Assembly: GCF_008124835.1 (NCBI RefSeq)
Contig: NZ_VNHW01000002.1
Span: forward strand, 372,001-436,000
Direction: 5' to 3'
Length of the DNA: 64,000 nucleotides
Source: Blastococcus xanthinilyticus
GTDB taxonomy: Bacteria > Actinomycetota > Actinomycetes > Mycobacteriales > Geodermatophilaceae
The number at the start of each line of letters is the position of its first letter. Positions within the stretch are counted from its first letter, which is position 1. Position numbers and translations under genes: made by a program. Below are positions 12,312 to 61,693 of the stretch, piece after piece. The notes beneath the pieces are model-generated. The model did no database searches, was not told the DNA's origin, and saw only the letters and a program-made list of their open reading frames with translations.

Positions 12312-15386
<3,075 letters not shown>

Positions 15387-31491: not shown

Positions 31492-31496
31492 CGCGA

Positions 31497-31610
31497 TGAC
31501 ATGGCGATCCTCCGGATCGCACCGCGGCCACGTGCCGTGCCCCTGCTGCGTGGAGCGCGTCCGTCCTGCCTGCGCGGGACCCTCCGGGCCCCACTCGGCA
31601 CGACCGTGCG
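31497..31610 (+). repeat. TCC-hairpin repeat, locus A copy 1
   Basis: Unit of about 114 bp. Begins TGACATGGC, then hairpin GCGATCC-TCC-GGATCGC (31504-31520), the core CACCGCGGCCACGTGCCGTG, then GGACCCTCCGGGCCCCACTC and the end GGCACGACC. It starts just after the ferritin-like stop. Shares this full organisation with copies A2, A4 and C1 and, inverted, with B1 and B2. Confidence 0.9.
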
Positions 31611-31720
31611 GTGACACTGCGATCCTCCGGATCGCACCGCGGCCAGGTGCCGTACCCCCGGTGCGTCGAGCGCGTCCGTCCTGCCTGCGCGGGACCCTCC
31701 GGGCCCCACTCGGCACGACC
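31611..31720 (+). repeat. TCC-hairpin repeat, locus A copy 2
   Basis: Second tandem unit, beginning GTGACACTGCGATCC; hairpin GCGATCC-TCC-GGATCGC, then core CACCGCGGCCAGGTGCCGTA, and the same right end as copy 1. It differs from copy 1 at a handful of positions. Confidence 0.9.
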
Positions 31721-31770: not shown

Positions 31771-31884
31771 ATGACATCGCGATCCTCCGGATCGCACCGC
31801 GGCCACGTGCCGTGCCCCTGTTGCGCGGAGCCCTTCCGTCGCGCCTGCGCGGACCCCTCCGGGGCCCACTCGGCACGACCGTGC
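31771..31884 (+). repeat. TCC-hairpin repeat, locus A copy 4
   Basis: Full unit: ATGACATCGCGATCCTCCGG..., left hairpin GCGATCC-TCC-GGATCGC, right hairpin GGACCCC-TCC-GGGGCCC, end CACTCGGCACGACC. Directly followed by the terminator at 31886. Confidence 0.9.
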
Positions 31885-38554: not shown

Positions 38555-41500
38555 GTGGCACAGCACGGCGGTGAGAGCGGTCCGGTCTACCGGCTGCTGC
38601 CGGGGGAGCCGCCGCGCACCACGGCGCCGCGGCTCGACCCGACGCAGCAGGCGGTCGTCGACCACGCCGGGGGGCCGCTGCTGGTGCTCGCCGGCCCCGG
38701 CACCGGGAAGACCACCACGATCGTCGAGGCCGTCGCCCGCCGGATCGACACCGGGATCGATCCCGAGCAGATCCTGGTCCTGACCTTCAGCCGCAAGGCC
38801 GCTGCCGAGCTGCGCACCCGAATCACCGCCCGGGTGGCCCGCACCATCCGTGAGCCGCTGGCCCGCACCTTCCACTCCTACGCCTACGGCGTGCTGCGCC
38901 GCGCCGCCGTGCTGCGCGGCGACCCGCCGCCGCGCCTGCTCACCGCCGCCGAGCAGGACGCGGTCGTCGCCGAGCTGCTGCGCGGCGACGCCGAGGGCGT
39001 GGGCACCGTGCGCTGGCCCGCCGACCTCGCGCCGGCGCTGGGCACCGAGGGGTTCCGGGCGGAGCTGCGCGAGCTGCTGCTGCGCGCGACGGAGCGGGGG
39101 GTCGGCCCCGCGCGGCTGGCCGCCTGGGGCCGCGAGACCGGCCGCGAGCACTGGGTGCACGCCGCCGCGTTCCAGCAGCAGTACGAGAACGTCAGCGACT
39201 TCTGGGTCGCCTCCCGCGGGGACGCCTCCGGGTACGACCCGGCGGAGCTGGTCCGCCAGGCCATCCTCGAGCTGAGCGAGGACCCGGAGCTGCTCCGCCA
39301 GGAGCGCGAGCGGGCCAGCTGGCTGTTCGTCGACGAGTACCAGGACACCGATCCGGCGCAGGTCGAGCTGCTGGCGCTGCTCGCCGGGGGCGGCGGCAAC
39401 CTGGTCGCGGTCGGCGACCCGGACCAGTCCATCTACGCCTTCCGCGGGGCCGAGCCCCGCGGCATCGTGGAGTTCCCCGACCGGTTCCGGCACACCGACG
39501 GCCGCGCGGCCGACCGGGTCTCGCTGGGCGTCTGCCGGCGGTCGGGGGAGGAGCTGCTGCGGATCAGCCGGCGGGTGGCCGAGGGGCTGCCCGGCCCCTG
39601 GGAGCACCGCCGGTTGGCGGCGGGGGAGTCGACGCCCCCCGGCGAGGCGGAGGTGCACGTCTTCGGTTCGGCCGCGGTCGAGGCGGTCTACGTCGCCGAC
39701 GTGCTGCGCCGGGCGCACCTGCTCGACGGCGTGCCGTGGTCGCAGATGGCGGTGGTCGTGCGGACGGCCGGGGTGCTCGGGCCGTTCCGCCGGGCGCTGG
39801 CGTCCGCCGGCGTGCCGGTCACCGTCTCCACCGACGACCTGCCGCTGGCCGCGCAGCCCGCGGTGGCCCCGTTGCTGCACGCGCTCACGGCGCTGCTCCC
39901 GCGTCCCGACGGCGAGCCGACCGGTCTCGACGAGCCGGGAGCCGAGGCGCTGCTGGCCTCTCCGCTGGGCGGCGCCACCGTCCTGGACCTCCGCCGGCTG
40001 CGCCGTGCGGTACGGGTGGCCCAGGCCCAGCGGGGCGTCGACGCCGCCGAGCGGGGAACTCCGCTGGCCGACGCGCTCACCGACGAGGCGCTGCTCGAGG
40101 CGCTGCCCGAGCAGCTGGCCCGGCCGGCCGCGCGGGTGGCGGCGGTGATGGCCGCCGGCCGGCTAGCGCTGGCGCAGGACGGCACCGCGGAGGACGTGCT
40201 GTGGGCGATGTGGCAGCGCAGCGGGCTGGGCGCCCGCTGGGCGCGGGCCAGCGCCGCCGGCGGTCCGCCGGGAGCCGTCGCCGACCGCGACCTGGACGCC
40301 GTCGTCGCGCTGTTCGACGCCGCCGCGGGGTTCGTCGACCGGCTGCCGTCGGCCGACGTCCGGGCGTTCGTCGCCCACCTGTCGGCACAGGAGCTGCCCG
40401 GTGACACCGGCGCCGCCCGGGGGGCCGCCGGCGAGACGGTCCGGCTGCTCACCGCGCACGCCGCGAAGGGCCTGGAGTGGGACGTGGTGTGCGTCTCCGG
40501 CGTGCAGGAGGGCGTGTGGCCCGACCTCCGCGAGCGGGCGTCGCTGCTCGGCGCGGAGGTGCTGGTCGAGAAGGCCGCAGGGCTCGACGCCGCGGGCACC
40601 GACCGCCGCACGCTGGCCCTGGCCGAGGAGCGCCGGCTGTTCTACGTCGCCACCACCCGCGCCCGGCGGCGGCTCGTCGTCACCGCCATCGAGGGGGCGC
40701 TGGACAGCGCGGACGCCGGCGCCACCGCCTCCCGGTTCCTCGACCTGGTCGAGCCACCCTCCGCCGACGGCCGTCCGCTCACCGAGCTGCCCCGGGCGCT
40801 CACCCTGCCCGCGCTGGTCGCCGAGCTGCGCCGGGCGGTCACCGATCCGCAGACGCCCCCGGCCCGCCGTGCCCCGGCTGCGGCGCTGCTCCGCCGGCTG
40901 GCCGACGAGGGCGTGGCCGGCGCCGCGCCCGCCCGCTGGTGGGGCCTCGCCCCGCTGTCGGACGACGCGCCGCTGGTGCCGGAGGAGGAGCCGGTGCGCG
41001 TGCGTCCCTCGGCCATCGAGACCTTCCAGCGCTGCCCGCTGCGCTGGGTGCTGGGCGCGGTCGGCGCCGAGGCCTCGCCGGACGCCACCCGCACCGTCGG
41101 GACGGCGGTGCACGCGGTCGCCCAGCAGGTCGCCGAGGGGCTGCCGCCGGCCGACGCGCGGGCGGTGCTGGACGGCGAGCTGGACCAGCTCGACCTCGGC
41201 CCCGGCTGGGCCGACCAGCGGCAGCGCGTCCAGGCCCAGGACATGCTCGACCGCTTCCTCCGCTGGCACGCCGCCAACGGCCGGGAGCTGCTCAGCGCCG
41301 AGGGGAACGTCGACGTCGTGATCGGCCGGGCGCGCATCCGTGGGCAGGTGGACCGGCTCGAGCGGGACGCCGAGGGGCGGCTGGTCGTCGTCGACCTCAA
41401 GACCGGGAAGACGGCGGCCAAGAACACCGAGGAGCACGGCCAGCTCGCCGCCTACCAGGTGGCGATCGCCGCCGGCGGGTTCGCCGAGCACGGCACCGTG

Positions 41501-41737
41501 CCCGGCGGCGCCGCGCTGCTCCAGGTCGGCACCGGCGCCAAGGCCAAGGAGCAGCACCAGGAGCCGCTGCCCGCCGACGTGCCGCTGGACCAGACCTGGG
41601 CCGGGCAGCTGGTGGCCGAGGTCGGCGAGGGGATGGGCGCCGGCACGTTCGAGGTGCGCACCGGCAGCCACTGCGCGCGGTGCCCCGCCCGGCGCAGCTG
41701 CCCGCTGCAGGAGCGCGGACGGCAGGTGACCGGATGA
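38555..41737 (+). CDS. adnA: AdnA subunit of the AdnAB helicase-nuclease
   Basis: Dual motor-nuclease that resects DNA double-strand breaks for homologous recombination. 1060 residues, as in mycobacteria. UvrD-type helicase: LDPTQQAVVDHAGGPLLVLAGPGTGKTTT in segments (Q motif, Walker A about 47-53), FTFSRKAA-like LTFSRKAAAELRTRI, VDEYQDTDPAQVELL about residue 260, GDPDQSIYAFRGAEP, LTAHAAKGLEWDVVCV near 636, and VATTRARRRL. The C-terminal RecB-like nuclease has RARIRGQVDRLE, VVVDLKTGKT and QLAAYQVAI. Four Cys (RCPLRW about 827; CARCPARRSC at 1041-1050) should hold a 4Fe-4S cluster. GTG start 38555; stop overlaps adnB by 4 nt. Confidence 0.95.
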   Translation: MAQHGGESGPVYRLLPGEPPRTTAPRLDPTQQAVVDHAGGPLLVLAGPGTGKTTTIVEAVARRIDTGIDPEQILVLTFSRKAAAELRTRITARVARTIREPLARTFHSYAYGVLRRAAVLRGDPPPRLLTAAEQDAVVAELLRGDAEGVGTVRWPADLAPALGTEGFRAELRELLLRATERGVGPARLAAWGRETGREHWVHAAAFQQQYENVSDFWVASRGDASGYDPAELVRQAILELSEDPELLRQERERASWLFVDEYQDTDPAQVELLALLAGGGGNLVAVGDPDQSIYAFRGAEPRGIVEFPDRFRHTDGRAADRVSLGVCRRSGEELLRISRRVAEGLPGPWEHRRLAAGESTPPGEAEVHVFGSAAVEAVYVADVLRRAHLLDGVPWSQMAVVVRTAGVLGPFRRALASAGVPVTVSTDDLPLAAQPAVAPLLHALTALLPRPDGEPTGLDEPGAEALLASPLGGATVLDLRRLRRAVRVAQAQRGVDAAERGTPLADALTDEALLEALPEQLARPAARVAAVMAAGRLALAQDGTAEDVLWAMWQRSGLGARWARASAAGGPPGAVADRDLDAVVALFDAAAGFVDRLPSADVRAFVAHLSAQELPGDTGAARGAAGETVRLLTAHAAKGLEWDVVCVSGVQEGVWPDLRERASLLGAEVLVEKAAGLDAAGTDRRTLALAEERRLFYVATTRARRRLVVTAIEGALDSADAGATASRFLDLVEPPSADGRPLTELPRALTLPALVAELRRAVTDPQTPPARRAPAAALLRRLADEGVAGAAPARWWGLAPLSDDAPLVPEEEPVRVRPSAIETFQRCPLRWVLGAVGAEASPDATRTVGTAVHAVAQQVAEGLPPADARAVLDGELDQLDLGPGWADQRQRVQAQDMLDRFLRWHAANGRELLSAEGNVDVVIGRARIRGQVDRLERDAEGRLVVVDLKTGKTAAKNTEEHGQLAAYQVAIAAGGFAEHGTVPGGAALLQVGTGAKAKEQHQEPLPADVPLDQTWAGQLVAEVGEGMGAGTFEVRTGSHCARCPARRSCPLQERGRQVTG

Positions 41738-44700
41738 CCCACGACGGGCAGCTGTCCTTCGACGACCTGCTGGCGGAGGCCCCGGCGGCGCCGCAGGAGC
41801 CCCGCCGGCTGCTGACGCCGGCAGAGGTGGCCGAGCGCTGCGGGCTCTCCTACGCGCCGTCGGACGAGCAGGCCGGCGTCGTCCGCGCGCCCACCGACCG
41901 GCCGCTGGTGGTCGTCGCCGGCGCCGGCTCGGGCAAGACCGAGACCATGGCAGCGCGGGTGTCCTACCTGGTCGCCAACCGGATCGTGGAGCCCGAGGCG
42001 ATCCTCGGCCTCACCTTCACCCGCAAGGCCGCCAGCGAGCTCAACGAGCGGATCCGGCTCCGCCTGGGGGCGCTGGCCCGGCACCCGTCCACCGAGGACG
42101 ACCTCCGCGAGCGCCTGGCCATCGCCCAGCCGACGGTCTCGACCTACCACGGGTACGCGGCGTCGCTCGTGGCCGAGCACGGGCTGCGGATCGGGGTGGA
42201 GCCCGGCGCCGGCGTCCTCGGGCCGGCCATGTGCTGGGGCCAGGCGACGACGGCGGTGGCCGCCTGGACCGGCGACATGTCCGACGTGCCGCTGTCGCTG
42301 CTCACCACGGTCGAGGACGTGCTGGCACTGGCCGCCGAGATGGGGGAGCACGACGTCACCCCGGCGGCGCTGCGCGCCTGGACGGCGCGGCTGGAGGCGC
42401 AGATCGCGGGATACGCGGACGCGCCGAAGAAGAAGGGGCCCTACGCCGCGGTGACCGAGCTGCTGGCCCGCCAGCGGGCCCGCGTGGCGCTGCTGCCGCT
42501 GGTCGAGGCGTTCGAGGCCCGCAAGCGGGCGATGGGCTCCATCGACTACGCCGACCAGGTGTCCTACGCCGCGCGGATCGCCGTCGCCTCGCCCGAGGTG
42601 GGGCGCCGCGAGCGCGCGCGCTGGCAGGTGGTGCTGCTGGACGAGTACCAGGACACCAGCGTCGGGCAGCTCCGGATGCTCGAAGCGCTCTTCGGCGGGG
42701 ACAGCGGCCATCCGGTGCTGGCCGTCGGCGACCCCCGCCAGTCGATCTACGGCTGGCGCGGCGCGTCCGCGGGCACGATCGAGCGGTTCGCCCGCACCTT
42801 TCCCGGGCGCCCCGGCCGGGGCGCGCAGCGGCTGACGCTGGCCACCAGCTGGCGCAACGACGAGGCGGTGCTCGCCGTGGCCAACGCCGTCTCGGCGATG
42901 CTGCCGGAGCCGGCCCAGCCACTGCCCGACCTGGCGCCTGCACCGACGGCGGGCCGCGGCGCGGTCACCGTCGGGCTGTACGACACCGTGGCCGACGAGA
43001 CGGCGGCGCTGGCCGACCGGTTCGCGCGTGCGTGGTACTCGGGTGTGGAAGCCGCTCGTCCCGAGTGGGCCCCGGAGGGGTCCGCGCAGGGGCGACGCAG
43101 CGGCTCCACGCAATCAGGGGACGGCACCTGGCCGCGGTGCGGTCCGGAGGACCGCGATGTCATGGCCCCGGAGGGGTCCGCGCAGGGACGACGCAGTGGC
43201 TCCGCCGAGCAGGGGGACGGCACCTGGCCGCGGTGCGGTCCGGAGGACCGCGATGCAATGCAGCACCCGTCGATGGCTGTCCTGGTGCGCACCCGGAAGC
43301 AGCTGCCGGGCATCGCCGCCGCGCTGCGCGAGCGCGGCCTGCCCGTCGAGGTGGTGGGGCTGGGCGGGCTGCTCGAGGTGCCCGAGGTGTCCGACGTGGT
43401 GGCCACGCTGACGGTGCTGGTCGACCCCACCGCCGGGGACGCGATGGGCCGGCTGCTCACCGGTGCCCGGTGGCGGATCGGGCCGCGCGACCTCGCTGCG
43501 CTGGAGGCGCGCGCCCGGGCGCTGGTGCGCTCCCGCCGCCCCGCCCGCCCGGACGAGGGCGGGCAGCCGACAGAGGGGCCGGGGGCCGTCGAGCCGCCGC
43601 AGGAGCGCGGCAGCATCGTCGAGGCGCTGGACGACCTCGGCGACGCCGCGCAGTACTCGCCCACCGGCTACCGGCGGCTGCGCCGGCTGGGCGGCGAACT
43701 GGCCCACCTCCGCACGCGGATCGGCGACTCGCTGCCCGACCTGGTCGACGAGGTGGCCCGCACGCTCGGGCTGGAGACCGAGCTGGCCAGCGCGCCCGGA
43801 GTCAGCCCGGCCGGTGCGCGGGCGCACCTGGACGCCCTCCACGGCGTCGCCGCGGAGTTCACCGAGCTGGCCGAGCTGCCCTCGCTGCCGGCGTTCCTGG
43901 GCTACCTGCGGGACGCCGAGGAGCGCGAGCGGGGGCTGGAACCCGGCGAGGTCGCGGTCAACCGGGAGGCGGTGCAGCTGCTCACCGGCCACTCGGCCAA
44001 GGGGCTGGAGTGGGACGTCGTCGCCGTGCCCGGGATGACCGTCGACCAGTTCCCCGCGCGCAGCAACGCCAGCGACTCCTGGATCAAGGACCCGGGCGCC
44101 GTCCCGGTCGACCTCCGTCTCACCGACCGCGCCGAGCTGCCGCAGCTGCGGCTGCCGGTGCCCGGCTCGGGTGACCAGGCAGCGGTGCGCGACGCCCTGG
44201 AGGACTACGTCCAGGAGTGGAAGGACTTCGGCCGCGACGAGGAGATCCGGCTCGGCTACGTCGCCGTCACCCGCGCCAAGCGGCTGCTGCTGTGCTCGGG
44301 CAGCTGGTGGCGCGACGGGGTCCGGCCGTGCGGGCCGTCGTCCCTGCTGCACACCGCGAAGGAGGCGTGCGAGGCCGGTGCCGGCACCGTCGTGCAGTGG
44401 GCAGCCGCACCGGAGGACGGCGCCACCAACCCGGCGCTGGAGGAGTGGCCGGTCGGGGTGTGGCCGGCCGACCCGCTGTCGGAGCCGCGCCGTCGGGCGC
44501 TGACCGCCGCCGCCCAGCTGGTCGAGGGCGCTGCCCCGCACCCGCTGGACCCCGACCTGGTGCTCGGCGAGCCGGACGAGCTGGTGGCCTCGTGGGTGCG
44601 CGACGCCGACCTGCTGCTCCGCGAGCGCGCCGCCGCGGCCCGCCCGACCGTCGAGGTGCCGCTGCCCTCGCACCTGTCGGTGTCGGCGCTGGTCACGCTG

Positions 44701-45252
44701 CGCCGGGATCCGGGCGAGCTGGCCCGGAGGCTGCGCCGGCCGATGCCCGCCGCGCCCGCTCCGCAGGCGCGCCGGGGCACCGCCTTCCACGCCTGGCTGG
44801 AGGAGCGGTTCGGCGCGGCGCGGCTGGTCGACCTCGACGAGCTGCCCGGCTCCGGTGACGAGCTGGCCGCGCCCGACGACCAGCTCGACGAGCTGCGGGA
44901 GGCGTTCCTGGCCAGCGAGTGGGCCGACCGGCAGCCCACCGAGGTGGAGGTGCCGTTCGAGACACCGCTGGGTCCGCTGACCCTCCGGGGGCGCATCGAC
45001 GCGGTGTTCCAGCGCGAGGACGGCGGCTACGAGGTCATCGACTGGAAGACCGGCCCGCCGCCGTCCGGAGCGGAGCTGGCCGCGGTCGGCGTGCAGCTGG
45101 CCGCCTACCGGCTGGGCTGGTCCCGGCTGACCGGGGTGCCGGTGGAGCAGGTCAGCGCCGGCTTCCACCACGTGGCCGCCGAGGAGACGATCCGCCCCGT
45201 CGACCTGCTCGACGAGGCCGGCCTGCTGGCCCTGGTGACCGGGACCGGCTGA
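41734..45252 (+). CDS. adnB: AdnB subunit of AdnAB, with in-frame repeat insertion
   Basis: Partner motor-nuclease of AdnA; in mycobacteria AdnB is the leading motor. 1172 residues, about 70 longer than the mycobacterial protein. Seen: VVVAGAGSGKTETMAARVSYL (Walker A about 63), LTFTRKAASELNERI, LLDEYQDTSVGQLRML near 303, GDPRQSIYGWRGASAG, TSWRNDEAVL, SAKGLEWDVVAVPGM about 757, GYVAVTRAKRLLL, and a RecB-like nuclease LRGRIDAVFQRE / VIDWKTG near 1103. Between AWYSGVEAA and MAVLVRTRKQLPG, residues 444-510 are the translated repeat (APEGSAQGRRSGS, GTWPRCGPEDRD, twice). The frame is preserved, so the protein is likely functional with an extra surface loop. Starts ATG 41734 overlapping the adnA stop. 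Confidence 0.93.
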   Translation: MTHDGQLSFDDLLAEAPAAPQEPRRLLTPAEVAERCGLSYAPSDEQAGVVRAPTDRPLVVVAGAGSGKTETMAARVSYLVANRIVEPEAILGLTFTRKAASELNERIRLRLGALARHPSTEDDLRERLAIAQPTVSTYHGYAASLVAEHGLRIGVEPGAGVLGPAMCWGQATTAVAAWTGDMSDVPLSLLTTVEDVLALAAEMGEHDVTPAALRAWTARLEAQIAGYADAPKKKGPYAAVTELLARQRARVALLPLVEAFEARKRAMGSIDYADQVSYAARIAVASPEVGRRERARWQVVLLDEYQDTSVGQLRMLEALFGGDSGHPVLAVGDPRQSIYGWRGASAGTIERFARTFPGRPGRGAQRLTLATSWRNDEAVLAVANAVSAMLPEPAQPLPDLAPAPTAGRGAVTVGLYDTVADETAALADRFARAWYSGVEAARPEWAPEGSAQGRRSGSTQSGDGTWPRCGPEDRDVMAPEGSAQGRRSGSAEQGDGTWPRCGPEDRDAMQHPSMAVLVRTRKQLPGIAAALRERGLPVEVVGLGGLLEVPEVSDVVATLTVLVDPTAGDAMGRLLTGARWRIGPRDLAALEARARALVRSRRPARPDEGGQPTEGPGAVEPPQERGSIVEALDDLGDAAQYSPTGYRRLRRLGGELAHLRTRIGDSLPDLVDEVARTLGLETELASAPGVSPAGARAHLDALHGVAAEFTELAELPSLPAFLGYLRDAEERERGLEPGEVAVNREAVQLLTGHSAKGLEWDVVAVPGMTVDQFPARSNASDSWIKDPGAVPVDLRLTDRAELPQLRLPVPGSGDQAAVRDALEDYVQEWKDFGRDEEIRLGYVAVTRAKRLLLCSGSWWRDGVRPCGPSSLLHTAKEACEAGAGTVVQWAAAPEDGATNPALEEWPVGVWPADPLSEPRRRALTAAAQLVEGAAPHPLDPDLVLGEPDELVASWVRDADLLLRERAAAARPTVEVPLPSHLSVSALVTLRRDPGELARRLRRPMPAAPAPQARRGTAFHAWLEERFGAARLVDLDELPGSGDELAAPDDQLDELREAFLASEWADRQPTEVEVPFETPLGPLTLRGRIDAVFQREDGGYEVIDWKTGPPPSGAELAAVGVQLAAYRLGWSRLTGVPVEQVSAGFHHVAAEETIRPVDLLDEAGLLALVTGTG
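43058..43164 (-). repeat. TCC-hairpin repeat, locus B copy 1, inside adnB
   Basis: Inverted relative to loci A and C. In the plus sense it reads CCGAGTGGGCCCCGGAGGGG, core GCACCTGGCCGCGGTGC, hairpin GCGGTCC-GGA-GGACCGC (43139-43155), then GATGTCATGG. The hairpin stem matches locus C exactly and differs from locus A by a base-pair-preserving change. Confidence 0.9.
43165..43261 (-). repeat. TCC-hairpin repeat, locus B copy 2, inside adnB
   Basis: Tandem with copy 1 at a period of 96 bp (32 codons). Begins at the GCCCCGGAGGGGTCC hairpin, lacks the CACTCGGCACGA end, and finishes with GCGGTCC-GGA-GGACCGC at 43235-43251 and GATGCAATG. Both units read APEGSAQGRRSGS in the adnB frame. Confidence 0.9.
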
Positions 45253-58267: not shown

Positions 58268-60262
58268 GTGGCACGAGCGGACGCGGAGGCCGTGCTGGCG
58301 GGTCTGGACGACGAGCAGCGTGCGGCCGCGCAGGCGGTCTCCGGACCGGTGTGCATCCTCGCGGGTGCCGGCACGGGGAAGACCCGGACGATCACCCACC
58401 GGATCGCCTACGGCGTGCACACCGGCACCTACGTGCCCGAGCAGGTGCTGGCGGTGACCTTCACCGCGCGGGCCGCGGGAGAGCTGCGGGGCCGGCTGGC
58501 CGCGCTCGACGTCGGCGGGGTCCAGGCGCGCACGTTCCACGCCGCGGCCATGCGCCAGCTCCGGTACTTCGCCCCCCGCGTGCTCGGTGGGCCGATGCCC
58601 GGGCTGATCGAGAACAAGCTGCGCGTGGTCGCCTCGGCGGCGGCCCGCAACCGGCTCACCACCGACCGCACCAGCCTGCGCGACCTCGCCAGCGAGATCG
58701 AGTGGGCCAAGACCACGCTGGCCACGCCGGAGGACTACCCGGCCCGCGCGAAGGCCGCCGGGCGCGAGGCGCCGTTCGAGCCGGCCGCCGTGGCCGCGGT
58801 GTACGCCAGCTACGAGCAGGCGAAGCAGCGCGACGGCGCCCTGGACTTCGAGGACCTGCTGCTGGTCACCGCCTACGCCATCGAGGAGCACCAGGACGTC
58901 GCGCGGCAGGTGCGCGCGCAGTACCGGCACTTCGTCGTCGACGAGTACCAGGACGTCAACCCGCTGCAGCAGCGGCTGCTCGACGCGTGGCTGGGCGGCC
59001 GGGCCGAGATCTGCGTGGTCGGTGACCCGAACCAGACGATCTACTCCTTCACCGGCGCCGACCCCGACTACCTGCTCGGCTTCGCCGACCGCTACGCGGA
59101 CTCGGCGGTCGTGAAGCTCGAGCGCGACTACCGGTCCACGCCGCAGGTCGTCGGGCTGGCCAACCGGCTGATCGGCCAGGCGCCGCCGCGCAAGGGCCTG
59201 CCCGGGCTGCGCCTGCTCGGCCAGCGGGCGGGGGGCCCCGAGCCGACGTTCGTCGAGCACCCCGACGAGCCGGCCGAGGCCGCGGCGGTCGCGGCGCGGT
59301 GCAAGGCGCTGGTCGACGACGGCACGCCCGCCGCCGAGATCGCCGTGCTGTTCCGCATCAACGCCCAGTCGCAGGTGTACGAGTCCGCGCTGGCCGACGC
59401 CGGCGTCCCGTACGTGCTCAAGGGCGGCGAACGCTTCTTCGAGCGCCCCGAGGTCCGCGAGGCGGTGATCCTGCTGCGCGGGGCGGCGGCAGGTGGCAAC
59501 GAGCCGGGCATGCTCGTGCCCGCCGTCCGCGACGTGCTCGCCTCCACCGGGTGGGTGGAGCACCGGCCGCCGCCGGGAGGCGCGGCGCGGGATCGCTGGC
59601 AGTCGCTCGCGGCGCTGGTCGACCTCGCGGTCGACCTGGTGGCCGAGCACCCCTCGCTGGACCTGGCGGGCTTCGTCACGCACCTCGCCGAGCGCGCCGA
59701 CGCCCAGCACGCCCCGACCGTCCAGGGCGTCACGCTCGCGTCCATGCACGCGGCCAAGGGCCTGGAGTGGGACGTCGTCTTCGTGGTCGGCCTGGTCGAC
59801 GGCGTGCTGCCGATCGCGCAGTCGCTGAGTCGGCCCGAGGCGGTGGACGAGGAGCGCCGGCTGCTCTACGTGGCGATCACCCGCGCCCGCGAGCAGCTCA
59901 CCCTCTCCTGGTCCCTGGCCCGCAACCCCGGTGGCCGGCGGTCCCGCCCGCGCAGCCGGTTCCTCGACGGGCTGGCCCCCGACTCCGGCCCGACCGCGCC
60001 GCCGGCCCGCCGGTCCGCCAAGCGACCCAAGGTGGTGCTCGAGGGCGAGGCGGGCGAGCTGTTCGAGCGGCTCCGGGCCTGGCGCAGCCAGGCCGCGCAA
60101 TCCGCGTCGGTGCCGGCCTACGTCGTCTTCACCGACGCGACCCTGCAGGCGATCGCCGAGACCCGCCCCGCCAGTCTGCGGGAGCTCTCCGGCCTGCCCG
60201 GGATCGGTGCCCGGAAGCTGGAGCTCTACGGCGAGGACGTGCTGGCCGCCGTCACCGGCTGA
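58268..60262 (+). CDS. uvrD2: ATP-dependent DNA helicase UvrD2 with HRDC domain
   Basis: 3'-5' DNA helicase, essential in mycobacteria. 664 residues. Helicase motifs: LDDEQRAAAQAVSGPVCILAGAGTGKTRTI split (Q motif, Walker A), VTFTARAAGELRGRL, VVDEYQDVNPLQQRLL, GDPNQTIYSFTGADP, ASMHAAKGLEWDVVFVVGL, and YVAITRAREQLTLSW. The C-terminus has RRSAKRPKVVLEGEAGELFERLRAWRSQAA and an HRDC domain. Start GTG 58268 keeps the Q motif near the N-terminus. Synteny with mrx1 and whiB7 supports the name. Confidence 0.94.
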   Translation: MARADAEAVLAGLDDEQRAAAQAVSGPVCILAGAGTGKTRTITHRIAYGVHTGTYVPEQVLAVTFTARAAGELRGRLAALDVGGVQARTFHAAAMRQLRYFAPRVLGGPMPGLIENKLRVVASAAARNRLTTDRTSLRDLASEIEWAKTTLATPEDYPARAKAAGREAPFEPAAVAAVYASYEQAKQRDGALDFEDLLLVTAYAIEEHQDVARQVRAQYRHFVVDEYQDVNPLQQRLLDAWLGGRAEICVVGDPNQTIYSFTGADPDYLLGFADRYADSAVVKLERDYRSTPQVVGLANRLIGQAPPRKGLPGLRLLGQRAGGPEPTFVEHPDEPAEAAAVAARCKALVDDGTPAAEIAVLFRINAQSQVYESALADAGVPYVLKGGERFFERPEVREAVILLRGAAAGGNEPGMLVPAVRDVLASTGWVEHRPPPGGAARDRWQSLAALVDLAVDLVAEHPSLDLAGFVTHLAERADAQHAPTVQGVTLASMHAAKGLEWDVVFVVGLVDGVLPIAQSLSRPEAVDEERRLLYVAITRAREQLTLSWSLARNPGGRRSRPRSRFLDGLAPDSGPTAPPARRSAKRPKVVLEGEAGELFERLRAWRSQAAQSASVPAYVVFTDATLQAIAETRPASLRELSGLPGIGARKLELYGEDVLAAVTG

Positions 60263-61554: not shown

Positions 61555-61582
61555 GCACATCGCGGTCCTCCGGACCGCAGCT
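61553..61582 (+). repeat. TCC-hairpin repeat, locus C left fragment
   Basis: GAGCACATC, then hairpin GCGGTCC-TCC-GGACCGC (61562-61578). Only the left hairpin and flank are present; the rest of the unit is missing. Confidence 0.85.
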
Positions 61583-61693
61583 GTGCACATCGCGGTCCTC
61601 CGGACCGCACCGCGACCACGTGCCGTACCCAGGGTGGCGTGGAGCGGGTCAGTCGCGCCTGCGCGGAGCCCTCCGGGCCCCACTCGGCACGAC
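61583..61693 (+). repeat. TCC-hairpin repeat, locus C copy 1
   Basis: Full unit: TGCACATC, hairpin GCGGTCC-TCC-GGACCGC (61592-61608), core CACCGCGACCACGTGCCGTA, right part GGAGCCCTCCGGGCCCCACTC, end GGCACGAC. Lies between the convergent whiB7 operon and ABC1 kinase gene. Confidence 0.9.

Follow-up and report, generated by a model that had tools for sequence, protein, structure and literature searches.

A gene-end repeat of Geodermatophilaceae within a variable loop of the repair motor AdnB

Two copies of a palindromic repeat lie in frame within adnB, the gene for a double-strand break (DSB) resection motor, in the 64,000 nucleotides of Blastococcus xanthinilyticus DNA analysed here (the window). 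How does a structured repeat come to sit in the reading frame of such an enzyme, and does its presence there mark it as an element that invades proteins? A first-pass annotation of the sequence took the latter view and proposed an undescribed class of protein-invading repeat. Below, we consider the two units, the normal placement of the repeat to which they belong, and the corresponding part of AdnB in related genomes.

Two repeat units in an intact adnB

The adnB gene (41734..45252, forward strand) is intact and codes for 1172 aa. Its start overlaps by 4 nt the end of an adnA-like gene (38555..41737, forward strand) for a helicase of the UvrD/PcrA/AddA/RecB type; the NCBIfam matches of this gene are all under the equivalog cut-offs, and we take it to be AdnA, the upstream partner of adnB. 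Identification of adnB comes from the open reading frame, from Pfam matches (UvrD-helicase, UvrD_C and PDDEXK_1) and from a phmmer match (E 3.9e-202) to the 1095-aa chain 6ppu_B, which we take to be mycobacterial AdnB, the database entry itself reading UvrD/REP helicase. The helicase and nuclease motifs expected of AdnB were located in the 1172-aa frame. At the domain level, UvrD-helicase spans residues 45-357 and is followed by the insert and then by UvrD_C and the nuclease domain; the insert lies beyond the stretch after helicase motif IV. Two further features of the window may be recorded: a region at 58940-59908 that is similar to the helicase motif regions of adnA and adnB (repeat families D4-D6) and is probably a further UvrD-type helicase gene, and a run of short GC-rich units, spaced by 9 and 18 nt, at 14947-15088 (family D1).

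The two copies are direct (43068-43163 and 43164-43259), with a period of 96 nt and differences at 11 of 96 bases. Reading along the forward strand, the left remainder of a variable AdnB loop (43036..43056, YSGVEAA) is followed by unit B1 (43056..43163), a full-length copy of a 108-nt element that scores 122.2 bits against a covariance model, and then by unit B2 (43164..43259; model match 43160-43259, 74.6 bits), which is without about 12 nt of the 5' end; the right remainder of the loop (43260..43272) leads into the conserved strand MAVLVRTRKQ. The alignment fold and its pair counts give B1 three hairpins, all on the forward strand: a long one at the 5' side (43056..43095; outer stem 43056-43062/43089-43095, inner stem 43065-43073/43077-43085), a short one in the middle (43122..43134; 43122-43125 with 43131-43134) and a REP-like 3' hairpin (43138..43156; 43138-43145 with 43149-43156), which is also found solo elsewhere. 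From 43057 onward the encoded B1 and B2 peptides are RPEWAPEGSAQGRRSGSTQSGDGTWPRCGPEDRDVM and APEGSAQGRRSGSAEQGDGTWPRCGPEDRDAM, and the insert, which occupies residues 442-509 of AdnB, includes APEGSAQGRRSGS...GTWPR. Third-position GC is 0.82 in the repeat stretch versus 0.97 in the rest of adnB. The initial description of these units as a repeat lying in frame within adnB at a 96-bp period, with no stop through either unit, is borne out: both are in the adnB frame and open within the 1172-aa ORF of an intact gene.

Whether the repeat inserted twice, as the same annotation claimed, is less straightforward. B1 has its nearest sampled copy in its own genome (C13:91983, 94% over 96 nt), whereas B2 is nearest to the AdnB insert of another genome (G008, 92% over 96 nt), its best own-genome copy being 88% identical. 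This difference in nearest kin rules out a simple tandem duplication of a single insert and means that 'twice' may be literal, but B2 is not full-length. The pair may instead have arisen by duplication and then conversion; a dimer with the same junction exists elsewhere in the B. xanthinilyticus genome (C8:91771-91972, recognised by eye).

Two near-identical units in a draft assembly could be the product of misassembly, and an inserted gene could be a pseudogene; the first-pass annotation had named both as findings that would count against its reading. The same site is, however, occupied in 11 other assemblies and the two units differ in sequence, while adnB is open with the expected motifs and the flanks of the insert in carrier genes have dN/dS values of 0.11-0.27, indicative of purifying selection. 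We give practically no credence to either explanation.

Placement of the 108-nt element at gene ends

We built the covariance model from 28 B. xanthinilyticus copies, B1 included. Searching the 4.6-Mb genome with it yielded at least 110 matches in 68 clusters; as 150 of 14,283 candidates were scored in this search, and 34 per genome in the family search, copy numbers are lower bounds. The consensus of the 28 copies folds into three hairpins, the 5' one long, the middle one small and the 3' one of 8 bp; 97.6% of cells pair, 10 of 28 base pairs show changes on both sides, and the covariation score was reached by 0 of 500 shuffles. Given the number of genome matches and the pairs changed on both sides, the repeat is far beyond chance. 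Rfam gave 0 matches at threshold in the whole window, with two chance-level matches far below it.

The element is present in 101 of 112 genomes of Geodermatophilaceae, a family of stone- and soil-dwelling bacteria. In an order-level sample, 15 of 121 genomes were positive and all 15 belong to this family, 86 of the negatives being of unrecorded family; as far as tested, the element thus appears confined to Geodermatophilaceae. What we describe is a structured, family-specific gene-end repeat, for which no earlier description was found in a search of mainly open-access literature; the accessible text of PMC5378121 is silent on such a repeat family.

Besides the units in adnB, the covariance model identified four copies in the window, all intergenic and on the reverse strand. 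Three form an array, the first directly after a stop codon (31496..31603), the second at 31611..31718 and the third before a terminator-like hairpin (31771..31878); the fourth (61584..61692) has a solo 3' hairpin beside it. Tandem arrays with periods of about 81-115 nt also occur elsewhere in the genome (C2:81553, C5:317935, C9:23003, C10:152727 and C19:13179). By eye, solo 3' hairpins were seen near stop codons with the full element missing, at about 61560-61583 and at the orthologous sites L246, L247, L250 and L256, which might mean that the 3' hairpin is either a basic unit of REP type or a leftover of the element.

Where, then, does the element normally lie? Gene neighbours were called with a crude GC3-based ORF caller that misses genes, and orientation counts omit nine of the 68 own clusters and seven of 51 loci elsewhere that had no neighbour or were flagged inside an ORF. 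The 59 own-genome clusters that could be placed, among which the adnB cluster is itself counted through a miscall, comprise 33 in convergent, 26 in co-directional and 0 in divergent gaps. At 52 of the 59, the gene on the 3' side is on the opposite strand and runs towards the element. Measured from the element end (...GATGTCA), the stop codon of that gene is at most 6 nt away in 26 cases, within 60 nt in 11 and more than 60 nt away in 15. A similar picture emerges from four other genomes (G005, G008, G011 and G016), with 21 convergent, 21 co-directional and 2 divergent placements among 44 loci, though these loci are mainly best matches to an AdnB insert and so a biased, non-random set. The background in the window, from equally crude calls, is 7 convergent, 25 co-directional and 6 divergent among 38 gene pairs. 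The element is normally antisense to the gene on its 3' side; in adnB it is in sense orientation. It is a family-wide gene-3'-end element that avoids divergent (promoter) gaps, with a possible role in mRNA stability or in the formation of 3' ends.

Occupancy of gene ends varies within the genus. For two intergenic sites of the window, we scored by eye the orthologous gaps in 21 other genomes. The first is filled in 8 of 21, with the element placed after the stop codon and ahead of a terminator-like hairpin that has been kept; the second is filled in 7 of 19 resolved gaps, and there four genomes hold the 3' hairpin alone. Comparing filled with empty sites at these two loci by eye, we saw no constant target duplication. 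Across 36 orthologous locus pairs, best-matching copies are 77-85% identical (means per genome pair), with a single pair at 94%.

This placement bears directly on the proposal that the repeat is specialised for invading proteins in the manner of Rickettsia palindromic elements (RPEs), with an open frame of its own for translated entry. In its favour, the element is in frame in AdnB at 12 of 83 loci, and the nine full-length inserts are each exactly 36 codons. The family, however, sits at gene ends, and coding hosts are scarce. A strict coding test flagged 3 of the 68 own clusters, adnB included; a looser caller, which missed adnB, flagged four own clusters (two shared with the strict test) and 4 of 51 loci elsewhere. 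In all eight looser-flagged cases the main Pfam domain begins after the element (for C10:152727 the domain check covered one of two overlapping ORFs), and at L205 a short CDGP match (E 1.1e-6) overlaps the element array itself. Most simply, the element in these eight cases lies upstream of the true start, although it may extend the N-terminus. This leaves adnB as the sole cluster of the 68 found to be flanked, left and right, by recognised domains of a single protein. Nor does the element appear built for reading in the AdnB frame: of 38 genomic 108-nt copies, 25 have it open, which ranks it fifth among the six frames (range 24-38). We therefore consider a specialised protein invader very improbable, and the proposed class gives way to a gene-3'-end element with one in-gene host among 68 clusters. 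A repeat that lies in frame within an important enzyme is not by itself the sign of a protein-invading element.

The AdnB loop and the history of its inserts

We assembled 83 AdnB loci, made up of 80 records, nearly all with titles naming Geodermatophilaceae genera, and three genomes including B. xanthinilyticus. Twelve carry the element, all in the same loop, and titled carriers are found in Blastococcus, Trujillonella, Modestobacter and Geodermatophilus. The other 71 are without the element, although the gap that an alignment was predicted to reveal is not clean: in these relatives the loop itself spans 8-70 codons (median 15), against 40-98 codons in loops with the element. In alignment, the insert site falls between residues 426 and 428 of 6ppu_B. 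Comparison of Blastococcus pairs indicates that about 4-6 loop codons are missing beside the 36-codon element (135-138 versus 42-45 nt, for example). Loop length is a multiple of three at all 83 loci. Nine inserts are full length, each exactly 108 nt; the matches of the other three, which are partial or mosaic, measure 109, 109 and 89 nt. Among 86 near-full-length genomic copies, 42 have a length divisible by three. The suggestion that the site might be a surface loop agrees with this variability in length; the exposure of the loop is something we infer from the length variation and from alignment to solved chains.

The loop has also taken up another repeat. In Geodermatophilus sp. TF02-6 (L069), one pairwise alignment indicates that a second dispersed repeat, unrelated to the first, interrupts the insert and keeps the frame; a 114-nt query from this genome (the 5' half of the insert) finds matches in 93 of the 108 genomes of the family, mostly to positions 24-105 among those listed. 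With this second family in place, the AdnB loop has received repeats at least twice, or three times if B1 entered separately. Other loops are of interest in their own right. That of Klenkia marina (L085), 70 codons in total and without the element, consists in part of a low-complexity GPGDAG/GPGGTG repeat. A tandem unit in the insert of a Modestobacter metagenome-assembled genome (MAG; L067) had matches in 0 of 108 family genomes, in a search run without a positive control. We considered whether the loop of Modestobacter sp. Leaf380 might be a decayed insert, and rejected this, because 7 of 500 shuffles and two other loops aligned with as high a score. The AdnB of SPQJ01000008.1 (L086), titled Bacillus sp. 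AZ43 (unverified), groups inside Blastococcus, and the record is probably mislabelled.

Do the inserts descend from a single entry? Trees of AdnB and of the element were obtained by quick searches with one short row (L128) left out. On the AdnB tree the 12 carriers amount to 10 changes, all forced by well-supported branches, and since 58 of 500 shuffles are as low, the carriers appear hardly clustered. Approximately unbiased (AU) tests, also run without L049-L053, L086 and L125, reject one clade of carriers (7.8e-6), and likewise for five carriers of the main Blastococcus clade (1.5e-7). The nine full inserts nevertheless cluster among 95 copies (4 changes against a shuffled mean of 8.8, 0 of 500 as low), and one clade of inserts is not rejected (AU 0.45) on a tree in which only 4 of 92 branches are starred. 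They are 84.0% alike mutually and 76.7% alike to 86 genomic copies. That inserts cluster while their carriers scatter on the host-gene tree suggests exchange over short tracts, loss against empty alleles, conversion by copies resident in the genome, or more than one entry. We rejected a transfer of long adnB stretches from carrier to carrier, as flank windows mostly follow species neighbours; we detected no long shared tract in the flanks of carriers.

If repeated entry is taken to the limit, the loop would be a physical hot spot for many fully independent insertions, each from a resident copy of the genome concerned. The scatter of carriers fits this, as do the proximity of B1 to a copy in its own genome, the landing of a second repeat family in the same loop, and the canonical TGTCA end kept, by eye, in the inserts of CT_GayMR19 and two Modestobacter MAGs; for the G011 insert, the second nearest sequence (88%) is a genomic copy of another genome. 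Against it, the inserts found in G005, G008 and G011 resemble one another (87-92%) more than they do any sampled copy of their own genomes (40 candidates per genome scored), and seven inserts share, again by eye, GTGC at the 3' end instead of TGTCA. To the insert of Blastococcus sp. DSM 46786, too, the AdnB inserts of two other genomes rank above any scored own copy. Full independence of the insertions is thus possible but, in our judgement, doubtful.

Selection provides a further line of evidence. Eight inserts, B. xanthinilyticus not included, have a dN/dS of 0.90 when read in the AdnB frame; in the other five frames the range is 0.76-1.08, and for genomic copies in the AdnB frame the value is 0.72. 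The flanking 300 nt of the same genes give 0.27 on the left and 0.11 on the right. AdnB is thus constrained while the inserted peptide looks unconstrained, although the dN/dS control is a soft one. Synonymous sites have diverged about half as much in the insert (0.162) as in the flanks (0.329 and 0.362), so that the DNA of the insert would be either younger than the split between the genes or constrained by structure. Inside the AdnB inserts, in an alignment fitted to the model, 92.0% of cells pair and 10 pairs are changed on both sides.

Taken together, these observations make it likely that the repeat is a tolerated passenger of a permissive AdnB loop that collects repeats. In outline, a 108-nt gene-end repeat has entered the variable loop that separates the stretch after helicase motif IV from the conserved strand that comes next, and lies there in sense orientation and in frame. 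It would persist because the loop tolerates very different in-frame lengths. Selection on AdnB would remove frame-breaking versions, a step that we infer because all 83 loops are multiples of three and the nine full inserts are exactly 108 nt. The encoded peptide would be an unconstrained passenger, and inserts would then be exchanged or lost by short-tract recombination, be converted by resident copies, or have entered repeatedly. This picture suggests a loop prone to receiving repeats more than a repeat specialised for entering proteins.

One observation sits uneasily with a tolerated passenger: a neutral model does not obviously predict that one repair gene would be hit again and again. Might the inserts alter AdnB activity, and be kept for doing so, for instance through weaker resection or a mutator-like state? 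That several genera share one site, and that no other in-gene site was found, could be read in this way, and there is a parallel in the main text of Di Nocera et al. (2013; PMC3733652), where recB carries a REP at about the same site in X. campestris and X. oryzae. The insert dN/dS of 0.90 speaks against such a role, however, as does the patchy presence of the insert between close relatives, which two intergenic sites match in full, and we regard it as quite improbable. A broader version, in which unrelated gene-end hairpin repeats enter the DSB resection motor repeatedly and not at random, either because the enzyme or repair acts on hairpins or because the insert tunes resection, draws on the published case of RecB in Xanthomonas and on AdnB here (one site, at least four genera and two repeat families); it strikes us as unlikely, if slightly less so. 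AdnB with and without the repeat in close relatives forms a natural series in which passenger and modulator can be directly tested against each other.

Relationship to known repeat systems

The comparison that the first-pass annotation drew was with RPEs, which one account places in 19 reading frames and another counts at 44 insertions (PMC2229807, PMC10969869). As described in those accounts, RPEs resemble the 108-nt element in being palindromic, of similar size, in frame in a conserved gene and apparently tolerated. They differ in that they enter many unrelated genes, whereas the element has one in-gene host among those examined, and in that an RPE is one long stem-loop with terminal inverted repeats, whereas the element consists of three separate hairpins with unpaired ends. 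Nor is the phenomenon new as a class, since in-frame palindromic inserts outside Rickettsia, repair genes included, already figure in the available text of PMC3733652 and PMC2229807. ERIC/RU and the 107-bp Correia elements are described as resembling MITEs, lying for the most part between genes and in some cases forming in-frame fusions (PMC2229807, PMC2759123, in part). Their hosts, however, are unrelated, and the likeness is one of descriptions, not of compared sequences. Mycobacterial interspersed repetitive units are actinobacterial, of similar size, and found at stop or start codons in operon junctions; the element differs from them in that convergent gene ends are its commonest location and its hairpins are strong.

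REPs offer a nearer comparison. According to the main text of Di Nocera et al. (2013; PMC3733652), they lie mainly between convergent or co-directional genes, near 3' ends, and REP ends often supply the stop codon; the Geodermatophilaceae element likewise lies downstream of genes and is rare in divergent gaps. Unlike GTAG and CGTC REPs, which measure 20-40 nt, it has 108 nt and three hairpins. No GTAG tag was seen at the element ends in the alignment, and RAYT-type Y1 transposase (PF01797) had 0 matches in the B. xanthinilyticus genome, with a control positive in 5 of 14 known genomes; membership of the GTAG REPs is ruled out by size, by tag and by the lack of a Y1 transposase in the element's own genome. 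CGTC REPs have an 8-9 bp stem, a 4-5 nt loop, an unpaired CGTC/TGTC tag at one end and a CCA-like tail (PMC3733652, main text); compared with this description, the 3' hairpin of the element has an 8-bp stem and a short loop, and then TGTC on its 3' side.

The closest precedent is the occurrence of REPs inside recB, uvrA and other repair genes in the same paper. There, REPs inside genes are the rarer case, many of them in replication and repair genes (uvrABCD, recBCD), which in some species are the only REP-tagged coding sequences, and the authors speculate on activity effects for REP-tagged repair genes (PMC3733652); its main text makes no mention of Actinobacteria, Geodermatophilus or Blastococcus. 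The case presented here differs in that the repeat belongs, as far as tested, to one actinobacterial family, in that the tagged gene is adnB, and in the nested second family. Even so, the recurrence of repeats in a DSB resection motor matches a pattern that is in print, unexplained, for other phyla.
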